Assembly: GCA_031273885.1 (NCBI GenBank) | Contig: JAISRA010000126.1 | Span: forward strand, 1 to 11,986 | Source of the DNA: Endomicrobium sp. | Lineage (GTDB): Bacteria > Elusimicrobiota > Endomicrobiia > Endomicrobiales > Endomicrobiaceae | Direction of reading: 5' to 3' | Length of the DNA: 11,986 bases | Shown here: positions 2,985 to 9,001 of the stretch, piece after piece | Position numbering within the stretch: the first letter of the stretch is position 1 | How the letters are laid out: every line of letters starts with the position of its first letter | Position numbers and translations under genes: made by a program | The notes under the pieces: model-generated | Told to the model about the DNA's origin: nothing | The model's database searches: none | The model's input: the letters and a program-made list of their open reading frames with translations, nothing else

Positions 2985-3022
2985 GAATTATAAAGTTTTA
3001 TAACTTCTACTATAAAAACTTA
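2966..3022. repeat. operator-like repeats between integrase and methyltransferase
   Basis: TATAAAAACTTA occurs twice in direct orientation (2970-2981 and 3011-3022). Between them lies the palindromic TTATAAAGTTTTATAA (2988-3003), related to the same motif. The set overlaps the end of the integrase gene and the -35 side of the candidate methyltransferase promoter, so it could be a regulatory site for that gene. Confidence 0.4.
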
Positions 3023-4156
3023 TATATCATTTATCTTTGGTTTCTTAACATCAATCTTAATAAAATCAACTACATTAAAATGTTCGTGTGGTTTAAAATC
3101 CGTATATACCTCTTCAGTAATGCGGGTATTAGAATGTCCAAGGCTTTTGCTGGCCATGTAAAGGCTGCCTCCGCCGTCTTTTATTCGGGTTGCATATGTA
3201 TGCCTGCCTGAATGGAACGATACCTCGTATTTAGTCAATTGCAGACGGTCAAAGAGCTTTCTGGTGGATGAAGTCAGTCCGGAGGGGGAAATAGGCTGGT
3301 TAAGATATGTTACTAAGAAGAAATTTGATTTTTCCTTTGCTTTCAGCCATACCTTATATAGATGGTCTCGCCACATAGGGTGTATAGGTATATCCCGCTC
3401 AGAGTGGCTGGTCTTAACAAACCTGCCTAAATGGGACTTGTTCCTGACTTTAATATAATCACGTTCAATATTTGGATTACGTGCCCAAACAAAGTCGCTG
3501 CATTCCAAAGCGCATATCTCGCCGGCTCTCATTCCATGCCAGATAGATAGTATATGCGCTTCTCTTTGCGGGTATTGGGTATTGTCAATGATTTTTTGTA
3601 TTTCGTCATCGGTAAACGCTCTTTTCTTTTGACTGTCGTTTTCAGAGAAATTATCTACTAAATCATAATAATTTGAGGATAGGTATCTGTTTTTATATCC
3701 CCATTTTGCCAGATGTTTTAACAGGTGCATATCTCGGTTAATGCTTGCCTTTCTTAACAGCTTCCCGTCAATCTTCCTTTGTTTAAGCCTTTTATGCATG
3801 TATTCGTTTAGAGCAGCGTCGTCAAACTGGTCGGCAAATTTAACATTAGGACAAATTTCCTTAAATGTTTTCCAAACTATATCATCTCTTTTTATGGTAG
3901 AGTCTCTTTTGTTTTTAACCGAGTGATTTTTCCTATATTCCTCATAAAACTCCTGAATGGGAATATCCCTTTTAAGTGTTTTGCCTCGGGCGGCATATTC
4001 GTTTAGTGTTTTTCTTGCGCAAAACTCCTCAGCTGCTCTTCTGTCGGGGCTTACAGGCTCGCATACCTGCTTTCTAATGGTATTGCCGTTGTCGTCTACT
4101 GCACTGACACGGTATCCGACGTAATAAATCTTGCCTCTTTTGTATACGAATGCCAT
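3020..4156 (-). CDS. int: tyrosine-family site-specific integrase
   Basis: This 378-residue phage/ICE-type integrase catalyses strand exchange between attachment sites. The catalytic set is complete: R210 in GMRAGE, K248 in the beta-hairpin VKTSHSERDIPI, H315 and R318 in SFHSGRHTYATR, H341 in SLGHSN, and nucleophile Y351 in EEVYTDF. Residues 1-50 (YKRGKIYYVGYRV) form an arm-binding-type N-terminal domain, and about 65-165 the SAM-like core-binding domain. The start ATG has GAGGAAAAG upstream. It is encoded convergent to nothing and lies downstream of the repressor operon on the same strand, with a large hairpin (4194-4252) between. The tRNA-Gly gene at the right end and the TTGTAAGC repeats at both ends fit an integrase of this type. 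It appears intact. Confidence 0.95.
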   Translation of the reverse strand: MAFVYKRGKIYYVGYRVSAVDDNGNTIRKQVCEPVSPDRRAAEEFCARKTLNEYAARGKTLKRDIPIQEFYEEYRKNHSVKNKRDSTIKRDDIVWKTFKEICPNVKFADQFDDAALNEYMHKRLKQRKIDGKLLRKASINRDMHLLKHLAKWGYKNRYLSSNYYDLVDNFSENDSQKKRAFTDDEIQKIIDNTQYPQREAHILSIWHGMRAGEICALECSDFVWARNPNIERDYIKVRNKSHLGRFVKTSHSERDIPIHPMWRDHLYKVWLKAKEKSNFFLVTYLNQPISPSGLTSSTRKLFDRLQLTKYEVSFHSGRHTYATRIKDGGGSLYMASKSLGHSNTRITEEVYTDFKPHEHFNVVDFIKIDVKKPKINDI

Positions 4157-4628: not shown

Positions 4629-4849
4629 TTTTTACTCTCCTTTTTTAGTTTTTCTAACACTAAATCAAGCTTTAAATTTAAAATCTCAAAATCTTTTTTG
4701 AAGTCTACAGAATAGTTTTTCGGCACATCGCTGATACTTTGATTTTTCCCCACCGATGAATTGTCGCCCATATTTAATACTACGTCGGAGTCTAATCCCT
4801 TTTTACCCAACCCTGCCTCAACCAACACCAATTTAATCTTCTTTTCCAT
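4625..4849 (-). CDS. 74-residue paralogue of the repressor's C-terminal half
   Basis: The protein has no HTH domain. It carries NMGDNSSVGKNQSISDVP (residues 26-43), matching NTGDNAVVGKNQNVNTTP in the neighbouring repressor. It then has a leucine-rich helix (FEILNLKLDLVLEKLKK) that corresponds to the repressor's final NNLELKVENLNLKISLI. It overlaps the repressor gene by 17 bases and has GGGAGG as ribosome binding site, so it is translated from the same mRNA. Sharing the linker motif and coiled coil suggests that it could co-assemble with the repressor and alter its DNA binding. That is inference; no family is recognised. Confidence 0.75.
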   Translation of the reverse strand: MEKKIKLVLVEAGLGKKGLDSDVVLNMGDNSSVGKNQSISDVPKNYSVDFKKDFEILNLKLDLVLEKLKKESKK

Positions 4850-5222
4850 GTTCCTCCCTCTTTGAAATCAGAGAAATTTTTAAATTCAGGTTTTCGACCT
4901 TTAGTTCCAAATTGTTCATTCGTTGTTTAAGCGTCTCTACATCATGAGGAGTAGTGTTAACGTTTTGATTTTTTCCGACTACCGCATTATCCCCGGTGTT
5001 TGAAATCGTGTTAAAATTTTCACCGTCTATAAAATACGAAAGTGGTTTGTTTGTTGCTTTCGCTATTTTCTTTAGCGACGTCAGCGAGGGATTGCGTTTT
5101 CCTCCTGCCCAATCGCTAATTAAACTTTCTCCTATGCCTATTTTCCTTGCAAAGTTTTGCTGAGTAAAGCCTGTTTCCCTAACAGCTTGTCTAATTTTTT
5201 TACCTACCGTGTTTCTATACAT
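4833..5222 (-). CDS. XRE/Cro-C1-type HTH repressor
   Basis: This 129-residue protein has an HTH_3 domain at about 8-64: GFTQQNFARKIGIGESLISDWAGGKRNPS is the recognition helix-turn-helix, followed by LKKIAKATNKPLSYFI. A polar linker with GDNAVVGKNQ (77-86) and a leucine-rich helix (about 95-120) for oligomerisation follow. There is no S24 peptidase domain, so it would not be cleaved in the way of LexA-type repressors. It starts with AAAGGAG upstream and heads the leftward operon, divergent from the early promoter at 5274-5302. The 253-bp gap between it and the first rightward gene is the expected place for operators. It is probably the element's immunity repressor. Confidence 0.88.
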   Translation of the reverse strand: MYRNTVGKKIRQAVRETGFTQQNFARKIGIGESLISDWAGGKRNPSLTSLKKIAKATNKPLSYFIDGENFNTISNTGDNAVVGKNQNVNTTPHDVETLKQRMNNLELKVENLNLKISLISKREEHGKED

Positions 5223-5273
5223 TTTTATAAATTTCTCCTTTTAAAATTTATTTTCTCGTCAGAAATATGCCTA

Positions 5274-5302
5274 TTGACATTATTTCGTGAATTGTATATT
5301 AT
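5274..5302 (+). promoter_or_regulatory. early rightward promoter
   Basis: TTGACA (5274-5279), a perfect -35, is followed after exactly 17 bp by TATTAT (5297-5302). Transcription would start near 5309 and leave a leader of about 167 nt before the first gene at 5476. It faces away from the repressor gene, in the position of a lambda-like early promoter that the repressor would control. The overlapping TATAAT on the minus strand could serve leftward transcription, but has no good -35. Confidence 0.75.
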
Positions 5303-5375
5303 ATTACTGCAACTGTATAAAAGCGATTCCCAAAATCACTATAAAAATTTATTAACAAACGAAAAAAGACAGAGC

Positions 5376-5457
5376 ATGGCTATCACGGGAATCCGCCATG
5401 TTCTGAACACAGAATGGTAGTCAGTTCGTTGAGCTTAGCGGTTCTCAACTGACTACC
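5376..5457 (+). promoter_or_regulatory. structured leader of the early operon
   Basis: Three hairpins follow in the leader. CATGGC/GCCATG lies at about 5376-5401. TTCTG/CAGAA lies at about 5401-5414. A long stem follows in which GGTAGTCAG (5416-5424) pairs with CTGACTACC (5449-5457) and TTGAG (5429-5433) with CTCAA (5444-5448), with a TTCG bulge. It ends 18 bases before the first ATG. AATGGTAGTC at its start also occurs in both 33-bp repeats at the left end, so the same DNA could also be a protein-binding site. Confidence 0.5.
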
Positions 5458-5475
5458 TTCTGATAGTATAAAAAA

Positions 5476-5835
5476 ATGAAGATTATTTATCAAATCAATC
5501 CCGAACAATTAAAAACTATCTCTAAAAGAGTGGCTGAAATTATATCCGCTCATCTTTGTGACGTCCGGACAAATAAAGCTCTGAAAGTTAAAGACATAAG
5601 AGACATTATAGGCAGGTCTTCAACGAGTATAAGCAAGTATGTTCGCAAGATTGATTTTCCACACGCAACCAGAATTGGACGAGTATTTAAATTTGATGCC
5701 CGAGAGGTAGAACAATGGTTGGAGAATCTTCAGCCCTGGGACGCAAGACGGAGATTCCAAAATCATATCAATAAAATCATTAACAACAGGAGGAAGGAAT
5801 GGGAGAAGGAGCAGGCGCAGGAACAGTTCAATTAG
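5476..5835 (+). CDS. AlpA/excisionase-like HTH protein with a charged tail
   Basis: This is a 119-residue protein. Residues about 35-88 (LKVKDIRDIIGRSSTSISKYVRKIDFPHATRIGRVFKFDAREVEQWLE) have the layout of the MerR-like winged HTH of AlpA and phage excisionases: helix-turn-helix, a short wing with a fixed Phe, and a final D..EVE.WL helix. The next protein has the same layout, so the pair arose by duplication. The tail (about 90-119, with RRKEWEKEQ) is charged and is copied in the zinc-knuckle gene at 6125. No Shine-Dalgarno sequence precedes the ATG, only an A-rich stretch after the leader hairpin, and an in-frame TAG lies 12 bases upstream, so the start is firm but initiation may be unusual. 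Likely role: recombination directionality factor or early regulator. Confidence 0.8.
   Translation: MKIIYQINPEQLKTISKRVAEIISAHLCDVRTNKALKVKDIRDIIGRSSTSISKYVRKIDFPHATRIGRVFKFDAREVEQWLENLQPWDARRRFQNHINKIINNRRKEWEKEQAQEQFN
5717..5831 (+). repeat. duplicated segment A, first copy
   Basis: This encodes the tail of the first HTH protein and the start of the second. It is repeated at 6255-6360 with deletions of 3 and 6 bases and some substitutions, so the copied reading frame is kept. Both copies contain the ribosome binding site AGGAGGAAGGA and the following ATG. Confidence 0.85.
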
Positions 5836-6122
5836 TAAGTCTTAGTGATGAGCAAATTGAGTCCTTATCGCAAGGGGTTGCAGAAGTTTTATTCCCGCGT
5901 CTAAAAAAATATCGTCCTAAAAAAACAATGACTTTAGATCAGGTATGCAAATACTTAAGTCTTTCAGACGACAGCATCCGCAGATATGTGAAATCCGGCA
6001 GTTTCCCCGCTCCGGTAAAAATCAAAGGGAAACTTCAATTTGACAGGGATGAAATTGACTATTGGTGGGAACAAAAAACCGAAGAAAGTAAACAAATATT
6101 CAAAGGAAAGAATGGAGAATAA
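5799..6122 (+). CDS. AlpA/excisionase-like HTH protein, second copy
   Basis: This 107-residue protein has an HTH_17/excisionase domain at about 42-92 (MTLDQVCKYLSLSDDSIRRYVKSGSFPAPVKIKGKLQFDRDEIDYWWEQ), with the classical SFPAPVKI wing and the D.DEID.W helix. The preceding region EQIESLSQGVAEVLFPRL parallels QLKTISKRVAEIISAHL of the upstream gene, showing common descent. It overlaps that gene by 37 bases in another frame. The start ATG lies right behind AGGAGGAAGGA inside segment A. This is the better match of the two to known excisionases. Two such proteins side by side may act as a heteromeric directionality factor, or one may be a regulator. Confidence 0.85.
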   Translation: MGEGAGAGTVQLVSLSDEQIESLSQGVAEVLFPRLKKYRPKKTMTLDQVCKYLSLSDDSIRRYVKSGSFPAPVKIKGKLQFDRDEIDYWWEQKTEESKQIFKGKNGE

Positions 6123-6124
6123 AA

Positions 6125-6255
6125 ATGGGAAAGAAATGCGTCGTCTGCAAAGGAGGAGGGTTTGTCCCAAAGGGAACAAAAGATAATTACAACTATATTG
6201 AGTTTAAGAAAAAGGGAAAAGGTATTTACTGGATTAAATGTCCTTCATGCAAAGG
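6125..6255 (+). repeat. duplicated segment B (zinc knuckle), first copy
   Basis: This encodes the zinc-knuckle unit MGKKCVVCKG...WIKCPSCKG. It is repeated without length change at 6364-6494, where ATG has become GTG and most changes are silent or conservative. It directly adjoins segment A there, with the second HTH gene missing between them. Confidence 0.85.
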
Positions 6256-6499
6256 GTTGGAGAAGCGCCAGCCTTGGGACACAATGGGATTCCAAAATTA
6301 TATGAATAAACTCATTGACAAGAGGAGGAAGGAATGGGAGAGGGAGCAGGAACAGTTCAAAGGGTGGGAAAGAAATGCGTTGTATGCAAAGGTGAAGGGT
6401 ATCTTCCAAACGGTACAGAAGATAATAACAACTATATTGAGTTTAAGAAGAAGGGAGAAGATATTTACTGGATCAAATGTCCTTCATGTAAAGGAATAG
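6125..6499 (+). CDS. zinc-knuckle protein with chimeric tail
   Basis: This is a 124-residue frame starting behind GGAGAATAAAA. Residues 1-45 form a small zinc-binding unit, CVVCKGGGF ... IKCPSCKG, a CxxCxGxG pair like those of DnaJ-type zinc domains, a plausible four-cysteine site. Residues about 46-79 (QPWD...RRKEWEREQEQF) are an in-frame copy of the tail of the first HTH protein (segment A'). From about residue 80 on, the frame runs out of phase through the second zinc-knuckle copy and makes sequence unrelated to it. The real ancestral protein probably ended soon after the zinc knuckle; the rest is a by-product of the duplication. Function is unknown; a nucleic-acid or protein-binding adaptor is possible. 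Confidence 0.65.
   Translation: MGKKCVVCKGGGFVPKGTKDNYNYIEFKKKGKGIYWIKCPSCKGLEKRQPWDTMGFQNYMNKLIDKRRKEWEREQEQFKGWERNALYAKVKGIFQTVQKIITTILSLRRREKIFTGSNVLHVKE
6255..6360 (+). repeat. duplicated segment A', second copy
   Basis: This is the copy of 5717-5831, starting at GGTTGGAGAA within the end of the first zinc-knuckle unit. It lacks 9 bases in two in-frame deletions. It supplies the tail of the protein from 6125 and the ribosome binding site and start codon of the next gene. Confidence 0.85.
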
Positions 6500-6579
6500 G
6501 ATTTAAAAAAGAATTTGAAGAATATTTAAACAAACAGAAAAACAAGAAAAACGTGAGAATAAAAGAAAAGAAGAATTGA
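6334..6579 (+). CDS. zinc-knuckle protein, second copy
   Basis: This 81-residue protein carries the same knuckle as the upstream gene: CVVCKGEGY ... IKCPSCKGIG, then a lysine-rich helical tail. The ATG at 6334 sits behind AGGAGGAAGGA, the signal inherited from the second HTH gene, so the product starts MGEGAGTVQ (as the HTH protein does) fused to the zinc knuckle. An in-frame GTG at 6364 corresponds to the original knuckle start and is an alternative, but its ribosome binding site is weak. It overlaps the upstream frame by 166 bases in a different phase. It keeps a normal zinc knuckle to its natural end, so of the two it looks the more intact product. Confidence 0.75.
   Translation: MGEGAGTVQRVGKKCVVCKGEGYLPNGTEDNNNYIEFKKKGEDIYWIKCPSCKGIGFKKEFEEYLNKQKNKKNVRIKEKKN
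6364..6494 (+). repeat. duplicated segment B', second copy
   Basis: This is the copy of 6125-6255. It is read in frame only by the 6334-6579 gene; the upstream frame reads it out of phase. All four cysteine codons are kept. Confidence 0.85.
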
Positions 6580-6584
6580 ATAAA

Positions 6585-6639
6585 GCGGAGGCGCAATCTA
6601 TACACTCGTAGCAATAGCTCTTTCTTATAACGCCTCCGC
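6585..6639 (+). ncRNA. hairpin 1 of structured non-coding block
   Basis: GCGGAGGCG (6585-6593) pairs perfectly with CGCCTCCGC (6631-6639) around a 37-base A/U-rich loop. It starts 5 bases behind the stop of the zinc-knuckle gene. No U-run follows on the plus strand, so it is not a standard terminator. It is the first of three stable stems in a 274-base gap without a gene. Confidence 0.55.
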
Positions 6640-6654
6640 CCGTACAAATAAAAA

Positions 6655-6708
6655 GCTGGAAGAGGTCTCCATTATGCTTTGCTAGGGCATTAACTCTCCT
6701 CTTCTAGC
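6655..6708 (+). ncRNA. hairpin 2 of structured non-coding block
   Basis: GCTGGAAGAGG (6655-6665) pairs with CCTCTTCTAGC (6698-6708), 11 pairs with one G-U. The 32-base loop contains a smaller ATGC/GCAT pairing. No U-run follows. Confidence 0.55.
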
Positions 6709-6714
6709 CATAAA

Positions 6715-6753
6715 GGGCGGCGGTAGGTTTTTAATACTTTCTTCCCGCCGCCC
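6715..6753 (+). ncRNA. hairpin 3 of structured non-coding block
   Basis: GGGCGGCGG (6715-6723) pairs perfectly with CCGCCGCCC (6745-6753) around a 21-base U-rich loop. An all G/C stem of nine pairs in such A+T-rich DNA must be under selection or newly acquired. It ends 4 bases before the tRNA-like sequence. Confidence 0.6.
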
Positions 6754-6757
6754 AAAG

Positions 6758-6830
6758 ATCAGGGTAAGATAGCGGTTCAATCGCCTGTTACATCCTGGCA
6801 GGAACGTAGGTTCGACTCCTACCCCTGATA
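6758..6830 (+). tRNA. tRNA-like cloverleaf with aberrant anticodon loop
   Basis: The 73 bases fit the tRNA layout exactly. The acceptor is ATCAGGG/CCCTGAT (7 perfect pairs) and U8 is present. The D-stem has 3 pairs plus an A-G mismatch, with A14, G15, G18, G19 and A21. There is a 5-pair anticodon stem (two G-U), a 4-base variable loop with C48, and a perfect T-stem GTAGG/CCTAC with loop TTCGACT. The discriminator is A and CCA is not encoded. The anticodon loop reads ACATCCT. It lacks the near-universal U33 and a purine at 37, and a literal reading of 34-36 gives AUC. An alternative, stronger stem CCTGU/GCAGG would leave a 9-base loop. It is either a degenerate phage tRNA or a tRNA mimic with another role. 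It lies in the early operon 23 bases before the next gene. Confidence 0.6.
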
Positions 6831-6853
6831 CAACAGAAAAAAAGGAGAATTAA

Positions 6854-7123
6854 ATGAGATGTTATTCAGTAGGGATTGACATTAACAAAAGGAAAAGAAG
6901 AAACAGACTTATCTTTTTAGGATGTGCGTGTGTAGTGTTTTTTGCCATAGGTCTTATTGCCGGAAGATTAGTATGGCACGGTAAAATCAAAGTTATCCCG
7001 CCAGATCAGCTGAATACACTGAGATCGACTATGTTAAATCAAACCGGTGACACTACATTTACACCGACAAACGCAGATAACTGGGATGGCGACTGGTGGT
7101 TGGTAGGTTCAGATGAAGAGTAA
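6854..7123 (+). CDS. small single-pass membrane protein
   Basis: This is an 89-residue protein of unrecognised family, with AAAGGAG ahead of the ATG. A basic stretch (NKRKRRNR, 11-18) precedes a hydrophobic helix (about 19-40, LIFLGCACVVFFAIGLIAG). By the positive-inside rule the N-terminus is cytoplasmic and the polar C-terminal 45 residues lie outside the membrane. The tail ends in a tryptophan- and acid-rich segment (NWDGDWWLVGSDEE). It is the first protein gene after the structured RNA block. Its place in a recombination operon gives no clear hint of role. Confidence 0.7.
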   Translation: MRCYSVGIDINKRKRRNRLIFLGCACVVFFAIGLIAGRLVWHGKIKVIPPDQLNTLRSTMLNQTGDTTFTPTNADNWDGDWWLVGSDEE

Positions 7124-7168
7124 AAACGGGAAGATATGTAAATTTATAATACCTGAAGAGAGGAATAA

Positions 7169-7339
7169 ATGACACAAATAGAAATCAGTTTAGGAGGCAT
7201 TATTTTTTTACTAGGAATTATCATTATTTTGATAATACTAACCCTAGATAAAGTACTAGACATCAGAATACAAATTTATCGTCTTGCGCATAAAAAAGAA
7301 ATAAAAACAAAGGAGGCAATAGATGGAAGAAAATGTTGA
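7169..7339 (+). CDS. 56-residue membrane protein
   Basis: The ATG at 7169 follows GAGAGGAATAA. The protein is MTQIEISLGG followed by a long hydrophobic helix (about 8-30, GGIIFLLGIIIILIILTL) and a basic amphipathic tail (RIQIYRLAHKKEIKTKEA). It overlaps the next gene by 17 bases in another frame, which supports coupled translation in the operon. Size and shape resemble small phage membrane proteins, but no family is recognised. Confidence 0.6.
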   Translation: MTQIEISLGGIIFLLGIIIILIILTLDKVLDIRIQIYRLAHKKEIKTKEAIDGRKC

Positions 7340-7613
7340 AGTTTTAAAATCTCTCCAGGAAAAAGGGGAATCGCTTGTTAATGTTCTCAATGAATTTTGC
7401 GATAAAAATATTTCTAACGGTGTCTATAAGGTTGTAAGTGATAAAGACCTTCTTAGTATGGCCGAAGTACTTCATTCCTATATGAGAACAATAGACAATA
7501 TTCATAAATTCTTAGAGAGACAATCAAAGGCTTTGATCGAGTTTTTTACAGAGGAGTTTAAAAGAAGAGAGTTAGAAATAAAAAAGGAGAAAAAATATGG
7601 ATACACTGTATAA
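7323..7613 (+). CDS. small helical protein, unknown function
   Basis: This 96-residue protein is predicted to be almost all helical, with leucine-spaced stretches (VLKSLQEKGESLVNVLNEF, MAEVLHSYMRTIDNIHKFLER) and a strongly charged end (EEFKRRELEIKKEKK). AAAGGAGGC lies ahead of the ATG. It overlaps the RecT-like gene by 17 bases. The position directly ahead of a phage annealing protein suggests a helper in DNA recombination, but no known family is recognised. Confidence 0.75.
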   Translation: MEENVEVLKSLQEKGESLVNVLNEFCDKNISNGVYKVVSDKDLLSMAEVLHSYMRTIDNIHKFLERQSKALIEFFTEEFKRRELEIKKEKKYGYTV

Positions 7614-8376
7614 AGATCACCTTAAATACAGGAAAAAAAAACTTGAAGATTCAATTGTTTTAATGAAAGAAGGGAAAATTGAAAAAGATCAAAGTGTTCT
7701 TAAGGAATATAAATCAATTACTGAGGAGCTGAAAATGTGTACAGAAAATAAAAAAGAAAATGAAAACATTCCTGAAGAAACAAATTTAGAAGTTTATTTG
7801 GAAAATAGCGATAGAATTATTCCTCAAGGAATAGCAAAGATTTTTTATAAAAGCGGACTTTTTACCGATATAAAAAGCGAAGCTCAGGCGATTGTAAAAA
7901 TTTTAGCAGGAAGAGCTTTGGGTTTAAGTCCTATTCAGTCTATGACAAACGTATACATTATTAAGGATAAGATCGGGTACAGCACAAAAGTTTATCTCAG
8001 CAAAATAAAAAAGACAAACGGGAAATACGATTATTCAGTCATAGAGAGCACTGACGAATCCTGTGTGTTAGAGTTTTACAAGGATGGAGAAGTGTTGGGA
8101 AGATCTTCATTTAATAGAGAAAAAGCGCAAAGAAGCGGACTTATCAATTACCCTACGTACAAAGGTTATCCTCAATTGATGTTTTTTTACCGCGCAGCAA
8201 GCACCGGGATAAAAATGTATATGCCTGAAATCCTTGACGGCGGAGCGTTTATAGAAGATTTTATCGAGGTTGAAGGCAACGAATCGTCACAGAAAAAAGT
8301 CGTAGCTATAGAAGGCAATGAAATCAACGTAAAGGAGGGCTCTGATGGCGGAGATCAAAAAGAAGAGAGATTATAA
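7597..8376 (+). CDS. RecT-like single-strand annealing protein
   Basis: This is a 259-residue protein. The first 65 residues are charged and coiled. Residues about 73-215 follow the pattern of a RecT-superfamily group: FYKSGLFTDIKSEAQAIVKILAGRALGLSPIQSM, a strand with the GKxxxxxxxYLSKIKK block, REKAQRSGL, then YPQLMFFYRAASTGIKMYMPEIL. In that group the equivalent is a tr..A...Gl...w...p..ml..Ra.s...r...Pd...G block. Such proteins coat single strands and anneal them, working with a 5'-3' exonuclease. The exonuclease gene follows with a 32-base overlap, as in RecET and lambda Red operons. The acidic C-terminus (EGSDGGDQKEERL) is in the overlap. The start follows AAAAAGGAG. The family call is from pattern, not search. 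Confidence 0.8.
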   Translation: MDTLYKDHLKYRKKKLEDSIVLMKEGKIEKDQSVLKEYKSITEELKMCTENKKENENIPEETNLEVYLENSDRIIPQGIAKIFYKSGLFTDIKSEAQAIVKILAGRALGLSPIQSMTNVYIIKDKIGYSTKVYLSKIKKTNGKYDYSVIESTDESCVLEFYKDGEVLGRSSFNREKAQRSGLINYPTYKGYPQLMFFYRAASTGIKMYMPEILDGGAFIEDFIEVEGNESSQKKVVAIEGNEINVKEGSDGGDQKEERL

Positions 8377-9001
8377 TAATGATTATCCAAGCGTAACACA
8401 AGCCCTTGGCGTTTTAAGAAAAATCGGCCTTGAGATGTGGTATAAATTCCGCACCGCAAAAGAATGTGACGAAATCAGCGCCAGAGGCAGAGAAATAGGT
8501 ACTCAAATCCATGAATTGATACAGTCCTATATTGACGGTCAATCCCCGCAAATTGAAACTACCTACGAGAAAGAAGTAACAAACGCCGCAAAATCTTTTA
8601 TGTTGTTTAGAAAAGAACATCCGGAATTCGTTCTAAAAAAAGCAGAAATGGCGTTAACAGATGAGGAAAACGGATATAACGGAACGCTGGATTGTATTGC
8701 GGAAATTGACGGTACATCAGTAGTTCTCGACTGGAAAACAGGAGAATGCAAAGATAAATCCCAACCTCCTATTTATGACGAGTATTTGGCTCAGGTCAGC
8801 GCGTACGTAAATCTCTACGATAAAGGAATAAAGGATGCATATATAGTTGTTTTTGCTAAAGACACGGTATGTTACTCGCTAAAACATCTAAACAGCAAAT
8901 TGATAAGTTTTTGTTTTAAACAAATATTTTTGCCGGCTTTGAAAATTTATAAAGCTCAAAAAGAATTGAAAAATATATTAAAAAATGGAGAAATAAAATG
9001 A
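8345..9001 (+). CDS. RecB-family PD-(D/E)xK exonuclease
   Basis: This 218-residue protein has all nuclease motifs of the RecB/Cas4-like group: the helix RGREIGTQIHELI with H56, E101 in KKAEMAL, D116 in NGTLDCIAEI, D129 and K131 in VVLDWKTG, and the final QVSAYV (Q150, Y154). It is short for RecB-like proteins and has no helicase or iron-sulphur cysteines, fitting the stand-alone phage exonucleases that resect double-strand ends for the annealing protein. It is coupled to that gene by a 32-base overlap, has GGAGG six bases ahead of the ATG, and shares ATGA with the next gene. Confidence 0.9.
   Translation: MAEIKKKRDYNNDYPSVTQALGVLRKIGLEMWYKFRTAKECDEISARGREIGTQIHELIQSYIDGQSPQIETTYEKEVTNAAKSFMLFRKEHPEFVLKKAEMALTDEENGYNGTLDCIAEIDGTSVVLDWKTGECKDKSQPPIYDEYLAQVSAYVNLYDKGIKDAYIVVFAKDTVCYSLKHLNSKLISFCFKQIFLPALKIYKAQKELKNILKNGEIK

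Follow-up and report, generated by a model that had tools for sequence, protein, structure and literature searches.

The window, that is, the whole stretch of DNA analysed here (11,986 bases), is an entire contig (C10) of an Endomicrobium sp. genome that comprises 143 contigs. It encodes a tyrosine integrase (3020..4156, minus strand; Pfam PF00589, PHROG 1), a phage repressor-type helix-turn-helix (HTH) protein recognized by a profile match (4833..5222, minus strand), excisionase-like HTH proteins, a RecT-like annealing protein (7597..8376, plus strand; PHROG 561) and an exonuclease, and this set of genes indicates that the window is a prophage or part of one. The assignment of the RecT-like protein is also based on its homologues, two of which are named Endomicrobium sp. 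Integrases related to that of the window adjoin tRNA genes in the loci L096 and L097. Beside the window integrase, at 1448-2890 on the minus strand, lies a DNA methyltransferase whose C-terminal part gives a restriction-endonuclease-like (Mrr-type) match. Further along the minus strand, close copies of a GTGGATAAC-like motif, which we take to resemble DnaA boxes, are found at about 585-620, and a T-loop-like match near 650 showed no cloverleaf by eye. A tRNA-Gly(ccc) is located near the contig end (11797-11867, minus strand); a second Gly(ccc), on contig C126, differs from it mainly around the anticodon stem.

The feature studied here lies in a 274-nt gap between two small genes on the plus strand. 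Upstream, at 6125-6579, two consecutive frames have a common CxxC...CxxC module, as if they were tandem duplicates. The second of these (6334..6579) encodes a CxxC protein that resembles the frame at 6125 and has a weak match to a DnaJ-type zinc domain, below the cut-off. The gap is mostly filled by three hairpins, all on the plus strand, followed by a tRNA-like segment. Hairpin 1 (6585..6639), 5 nt after the stop of the upstream gene, has nine perfect GC-rich pairs and a 37-nt loop; hairpin 2 (6655..6708) has 11 pairs, one of them G-T, and an inner 7-bp hairpin; hairpin 3 (6715..6753) has nine perfect GC-rich pairs and three inner pairs. The tRNA-like element (6758..6830, plus strand) ends 23 nt before ATG 6854, which opens the downstream gene (6854..7123, ribosome site 6843-6847). 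This gene encodes an orphan protein of 89 amino acids with one probable membrane segment (by eye), for which a search of 5.8 billion proteins, at the sensitivity used, returned nothing but the protein itself. The predicted fold of the gap (-92.2 kcal/mol) has a z-score of -5.44, and none of 200 shuffles was as stable; the values are -5.8 (0/200) for the three-hairpin part alone and -2.93 (1/200) for 6758-6830 alone. In simple consensus scans, the gap showed no promoter-like site and the region 5200-8400 no terminator-like site with a loop of 3-8 nt, and the hairpins were rejected as terminators within that limit of loop size. The gap is likely co-transcribed with the early operon. Masking of the ribosome site by hairpin 2 was also set aside: complementarity is present, but 23% of 1000 shuffled upstream regions equalled it.

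The segment 6758-6830 matches the Rfam tRNA family (RF00005) over the full model with 35.4 bits, above the curated gathering cut-off of 29, which marks it as a tRNA by descent (E-value 1.9e-4 for the window against all families and 3.5e-6 for the whole genome). No other Rfam family reached its cut-off in the window. ARAGORN calls the segment tRNA-Cys(aca), a label that apparently comes from reading a longer loop. The position and the tRNA character given in the original prediction are thereby confirmed, by the Infernal-type comparison that it had proposed and by the second program. Among the 47 tRNA matches of the genome, however, the segment scores lowest, the remaining 46 having 48 to 75 bits. 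The pair list shows an acceptor stem (7/7) and a T stem (5/5) that consist of Watson-Crick pairs throughout, as had been predicted, and the D-loop bases and all elbow bases listed in that prediction are present. The discriminator is A, CCA is not encoded and the length is 73 nt. The D stem has three of four pairs, with an A-G mismatch at 10-25. If the anticodon stem is counted as 5 bp, it closes the loop ACATCCT with three Watson-Crick and two G-T pairs, and on this reading the C33 and C37 described earlier are correct; the stem can also zip to 7 bp, which leaves a loop of 5 nt. A 7-nt loop with U33 and a purine at position 37 on a paired stem, as expected of a decoding tRNA, is not found. The segment 6758-6830 is therefore a tRNA-derived element without a canonical decoding loop, and to this extent the original prediction is upheld; the element lies in a strongly structured region. 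Its departures from the tRNA norm are mostly in the anticodon arm, while all 12 acceptor and T pairs are perfect, but this contrast is weak, with Fisher p values of 0.05 and 0.14 for sites that we chose ourselves.

Folding predictions place the element apart from ordinary tRNAs. Folded alone, 6758-6830 has a mean acceptor-pair probability of 0.056. The median is 0.98 in a set of 35 host tRNAs (drawn from the best-scoring 30 of the 47 matches) and 0.97 in a set of 302 viral tRNAs, and each of the two sets has a single member below 0.05. Across nine stretches of flanking sequence the probability is 0.005 to 0.04. The acceptor stem thus does not dominate the predicted fold, as it would in a decoding tRNA, and by energy models that treat RNA without modified bases and without proteins the cloverleaf is not the favoured fold. 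Two hairpins compete with it in the minimum free energy structure (plus strand). Hairpin A (6759..6798) pairs the 5' acceptor strand (6759-6765) with 6792-6798, which is the anticodon loop together with the 3' anticodon strand. Six of its seven pairs have probabilities of 0.85-0.99 in eight of the nine stretches, and of 0.16-0.25 in 6758-6950. Hairpin B (6799..6827) is an extension of the T arm in which 6799-6802 pair with 6824-6827; the probability of the T stem itself is 0.32 to 0.86 over the nine stretches. The two folds of the element are calculated at about -22 versus -25 kcal/mol.

The predicted weakness of the acceptor stem comes from the odd loop, which is able to base-pair with the 5' strand of that stem. 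In substitutions run after the refolding had been noticed, the acceptor probability was as low as in the native element for two of 400 random 7-nt loops, about one of 400 random anticodon arms and about one of 400 random D arms, and for none of 400 canonical loops. Since random D arms gave such values about as rarely as random loops did, the loop alone is not singled out; rather, the native combination of parts is, in these models, unusual. Pair probabilities further indicate that CTCCT, on the 3' side of the T arm (6816..6820, plus strand), can pair with the ribosome site 6843-6847. This pairing reaches 0.57-0.67 when 6580-6900 or longer is folded and 0.12-0.28 in shorter stretches, values that are uncontrolled, and the T stem drops to 0.32-0.37 in the stretches from 6580 to 6900, 6950 and 7000, where CTCCT pairs in this way. 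We treat the predicted pairing as an uncontrolled lead.

Searches for relatives returned the element itself and little else. With 6570-6860 as query, blastn matched one of 99 relatives, which was its own genome, and two of 340 phylum genomes, the second through 21 bases at the 3' edge, outside the element. Queried alone, the element had matches in 14 of the 76 family genomes (E up to 1). Apart from the self match these are partial (best 0.0037), and within its own genome the element matched itself only. Its best global score to the fetched tRNAs of the host and relatives is 56, where identity would be 148. From this score and the self-only match in the genome it follows that the element did not arise recently as a copy of a host tRNA, and the 'recently decayed tRNA' of the original prediction, taken as a copied host gene, is not supported; the family matches, moreover, are only partial. 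Exact pieces of the element were absent from viral contigs and from species genomes. Named phages gave four weak records with the long query and 524 with the element at E up to 10, one of which was examined; plasmids gave three weak records. No tRNA-like counterpart was found in ten host or relative contigs, of which nine were scanned with Rfam and all for strong hairpins, with parts of L094 and L096 also inspected by eye; a single GC-rich hairpin lies in the early region of L096. Overall, the searched collections yielded no relative of the element, of the hairpins or of the downstream gene. The earlier proposal that selection has kept the elbow and acceptor therefore lacks support: no homologue was found in the 99 relatives or the 340 phylum genomes, and the predicted fold abandons the acceptor stem.

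Other phages do carry tRNA-shaped RNAs that lack a canonical anticodon loop. A scan of viral contigs for distant RecT proteins yielded 80 loci, 30 of which contain an element of 87-92 nt that scores at least 73 bits; we label this family R1. The R1 model was built from 20 of the 30 elements (19 distinct). In these 20 sequences, standard pairs fill 98.8% of the pair cells, both partners vary in 19 of the 26 pairs, and covariation scores 0.650 versus 0.236 when shuffled; RNAalifold independently predicts the same structure. A pattern scan found 59 further matches in 58 contigs, 11 of which are the same by name as before, and in total R1 comprises 55 distinct sequences of 85-109 nt. In the 40 distinct rows from the pattern scan, aligned by fitting to the model, both partners vary in 21 of the 26 pairs and the score is 0.784 versus 0.235. 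Members are spread over the loci L254-L333 and L334-L391, for example L295:3745-3835, L280:7499-7590, L283:5191-5278 and L271:1192-1283. The fold runs from the acceptor through U8 and G9, the D stem, a hairpin in the D loop (loop GAATRAATA), an anticodon-like arm and a linker to the T arm, and covariation spans the acceptor, T, D-loop and anticodon-like stems. The linker has 4 nt (AGAT in 32 of 40). The anticodon-like loop has 1-6 or 21-22 nt and in none of the 40 distinct rows has it 7 nt. The acceptor probability is at least 0.72 in 39 of these rows and 0.10 in one.

The position of R1 in the genome is that of an intercistronic RNA. Not one of the 59 matches lies wholly within a same-strand frame of more than 80 codons, and the preceding stop lies at a median distance of 27 nt and the following ATG at 42 nt (n=59). 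Almost half (28/59) begin 10 nt or less from a stop, and in 22 of 59 both the stop and the next ATG are within 80 nt. RecT is present in the locus for only 12 of the 59 matches, and thus R1 is not tied to RecT. With repeated contigs included, the neighbouring frames fall into 25 clusters downstream (68 frames, largest cluster 16) and 24 upstream (70 frames, largest 22), a variety that would be more in keeping with a free RNA gene than with a switch serving a single gene. ARAGORN, applied to 40 of the 80 RecT loci, called eight of 18 members tRNA-Lys(ctt) and one tRNA-???, and part of the family is therefore visible to this program as tRNA; the CTT that it used lies in a segment that is variable between members. 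An Rfam scan of seven loci, five of them with R1, gave 29.8 bits for tRNA to the member in L276 and no family at E up to 0.5 to the other members. In 80 viral loci that had been chosen without RecT, nothing matched the R1 model at E up to 1e-9, and the exact pattern is absent from the species genomes. In the host family the model matched five of 76 genomes, with 43-46 bits and over no more than the length of an ordinary tRNA (72-75 nt). Two members compared with named phages by blastn gave one match of 27 bases, annotated as a pseudo-tRNA of a Nostoc phage. A description of the family was not found in our literature searches, several of which were aimed at other points.

The window element resembles R1 in that it keeps the acceptor and T arm, has no canonical anticodon loop and is intercistronic. 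It is not a member of the family. It scores 26.1 bits with the R1 model, less than the ordinary tRNA-Gly of the window (38.0) and far less than accepted members (at least 65.8); its D loop AGCGGTTCA has no insert, so that the GAATRAATA hairpin is missing, and its acceptor is predicted to be unstable.

Skunavirus (936-type) phages provide a second case. In the 33 loci inspected (L099, L102-L133), ordinary tRNAs (e.g. Trp and Pro) stand at the end of the middle region together with elements of 45-58 nt that consist of a T arm and an acceptor, the anticodon arm being absent by eye (examples in L099:425-727, L102:871-1040 and L106:672-842). The T stem shows a compensated change (GTAGG/CCTAC, GCGGG/CCTGC), and the two short elements that were tested have acceptor probabilities of 0.96 and 0.97. 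In many loci the last element is directly followed by the ribosome site and ATG of a small gene. In SK1, a hypothetical protein is annotated from this ATG, and the BM22 annotation starts a putative membrane protein within the element. The BM22 and ASCC406 records annotate two tRNAs and leave out the short elements. According to one paper on 936 phages, its authors detected no tRNA in them (PMC6105707), and the term 'tRNA' is absent from the main text of a second (PMC4759559). Other tRNA-like elements, of 72-109 nt, have a Leu-type D arm and remodelled centres, and several of them have the acceptor AGTCAGG/CCTGACT. Those with the Leu-type D arm are found on the minus strand of L301, L260 and L287, and at L262:6686-6779 and L313:7468-7562.

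The window element is best read as part of a cis-acting RNA, with plain decay close behind. A phage tRNA gene would have lost its canonical decoding loop and would now make up the 3' part of a structured RNA between two genes in the early operon of an Endomicrobium-type prophage. This intercistronic RNA, about 250 nt long, would consist of the three hairpins and the tRNA-derived segment. Protection of the 3' end of the upstream message would fall to the strong hairpins. The tRNA-derived end, either as two hairpins or as a transient cloverleaf cut by RNase P and RNase Z, would separate this message from that of the small protein, whose ribosome site lies about a dozen nt downstream. The tRNA match, the strong folding of the gap, the lack of promoter- and terminator-like sites in the scans and the rarity of such refolding among random loops count in favour of this reading, as do the R1 and Skunavirus elements, which likewise lack a canonical anticodon loop and are intercistronic. 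Against it, the searched collections yielded no relatives of the array that would show selection, and the competing helix is weaker in one of the stretches folded. Punctuation by RNase P and RNase Z is suggested by the position, 23 nt before the next ATG. We put this reading first tentatively and give it somewhat less than an even chance.

It is quite possible, if on balance doubtful, that the element is simply a decayed phage tRNA, acquired by the phage and drifting after loss of function next to unrelated hairpins. Elements with a T arm that ARAGORN does not call are common: in 80 of at least 120 viral loci, they make up 43 of the 215 GGTTCGANTCC sites with a good T stem, although by eye some of the 43 resemble tmRNA ends. 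They are found at 22 of 83 such sites near a ribosome site versus 21 of 132 elsewhere (Fisher p 0.08), and enrichment just before the ribosome site is thus not significant. The missing D-stem pair, the two G-T pairs in the anticodon stem and the loss of a dominant acceptor stem in folding also fit decay. The 12 perfect acceptor and T pairs beside an anticodon arm that is hit most speak against it, as far as that weak contrast (p 0.05 and 0.14) goes. Furthermore, a parent-like tRNA was not found in the host or the family, and refolding of equal strength is rare for random loops (2/400).

An RNA with two states, in which a tRNA-binding factor or the speed of transcription would set downstream expression, appears unlikely. 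Its two forms might be a cleavable cloverleaf and an uncut two-hairpin structure, or, alternatively, a formed T arm that leaves the ribosome site free and an open one that covers it. Both folds are well formed at about -22 and -25 kcal/mol, the competing strand contains the non-canonical loop, and the ability of that loop to refold is rare among random loops. Once coding sequence is added to the fold, the ribosome site is paired to CTCCT with a probability of 0.57-0.67, and that of the T stem falls to 0.32-0.37. Still, no homologues show that both folds are kept, the acceptor is disfavoured in all stretches folded, and the arrangement has no known ligand. Since CTCC in the T arm is common to tRNAs, the pairing with the ribosome site may also be trivial. 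A broader version, which we regard as distinctly unlikely, is that phages keep a general class of non-decoding tRNA-shaped intergenic RNAs and that the bistable one in the window makes expression of the early operon switchable. A cleavable cloverleaf would then interconvert with a two-hairpin form made from the former anticodon loop, and opening of the T arm would cover the ribosome site.

The original prediction had suggested a tRNA mimic, for instance a decoy. As a stable free RNA that acts in trans, such a mimic would occupy RNase P, the CCA enzyme or a defence nuclease that targets tRNA. The intact elbow bases are consistent with this, and other phages indeed contain a covarying tRNA-like RNA that lacks a canonical anticodon loop and has the varied neighbours that free RNAs would have. 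The kind of RNA that had been envisaged appears to occur in other phages, but for the window element a mimic is improbable, as its acceptor is predicted to be unstable, unlike that of R1 members and viral tRNAs, and it occurs as one copy with no homologue. The ARAGORN call would agree with a tRNA that works but is unusual, perhaps in having an extended loop with the anticodon ACA; such a tRNA is very improbable because none of the examined pairings gives a 7-nt loop with U33 and a purine at position 37 on a paired 5-bp stem, and the element is the lowest-scoring of the 47 in the genome. Lastly, a tRNA remnant at an attachment site, which would recall the two related integrases that adjoin tRNA genes, is hardly credible, since the element is a full cloverleaf within the early operon, 2.6 kb from the integrase, and has no identity to a host tRNA, matching itself alone in its own genome.

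One of the known systems closest to the element is tRNA (RF00005), with a full-length match over the cut-off, the elbow bases, the 7-bp acceptor, the T arm and the length of 73 nt in common; the anticodon arm and loop are non-canonical, however, and the cloverleaf is not the favoured predicted fold. Bacterial Y RNA (YrlA) is a tRNA mimic and the partner of the Ro protein, and its non-decoding tRNA-like fold occurs in bacteria and phages. The window differs from this case in that tRNA alone reached the Rfam cut-off. A tRNA-like partner of a Ro/TROVE protein is mentioned in a passage of a jumbo-phage review (PMC7824862). Phage tRNAs with mutations in the anticodon loop have been proposed to resist anticodon nucleases (PMC10264068). 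These are phage-borne and have an altered anticodon loop, as does the window element, but that paper describes them as replacing depleted tRNAs in translation, whereas the window element has no canonical loop. Integrating elements leave fragments of tRNA genes (PMC9897764), which are likewise non-canonical tRNA-like sequences in mobile elements; the window element is of full length, is situated away from the integrase and has no host tRNA match. According to PMC10865867, a phage tRNA serves tRNA-dependent lysogeny. This too is a tRNA in a temperate phage with a tyrosine integrase, but the role in lysogeny described there requires that the tRNA substitutes for an essential host tRNA.

R1 offers a directly testable case of a phage that keeps the tRNA shape without ordinary decoding. 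It bears on the purpose of phage 'tRNAs', and this wider point is stronger than the case of the window. If the tRNA-derived segment of the Endomicrobium prophage acts in cis, as in our preferred reading, the phage would have recycled a tRNA gene into an element of RNA processing or stability.
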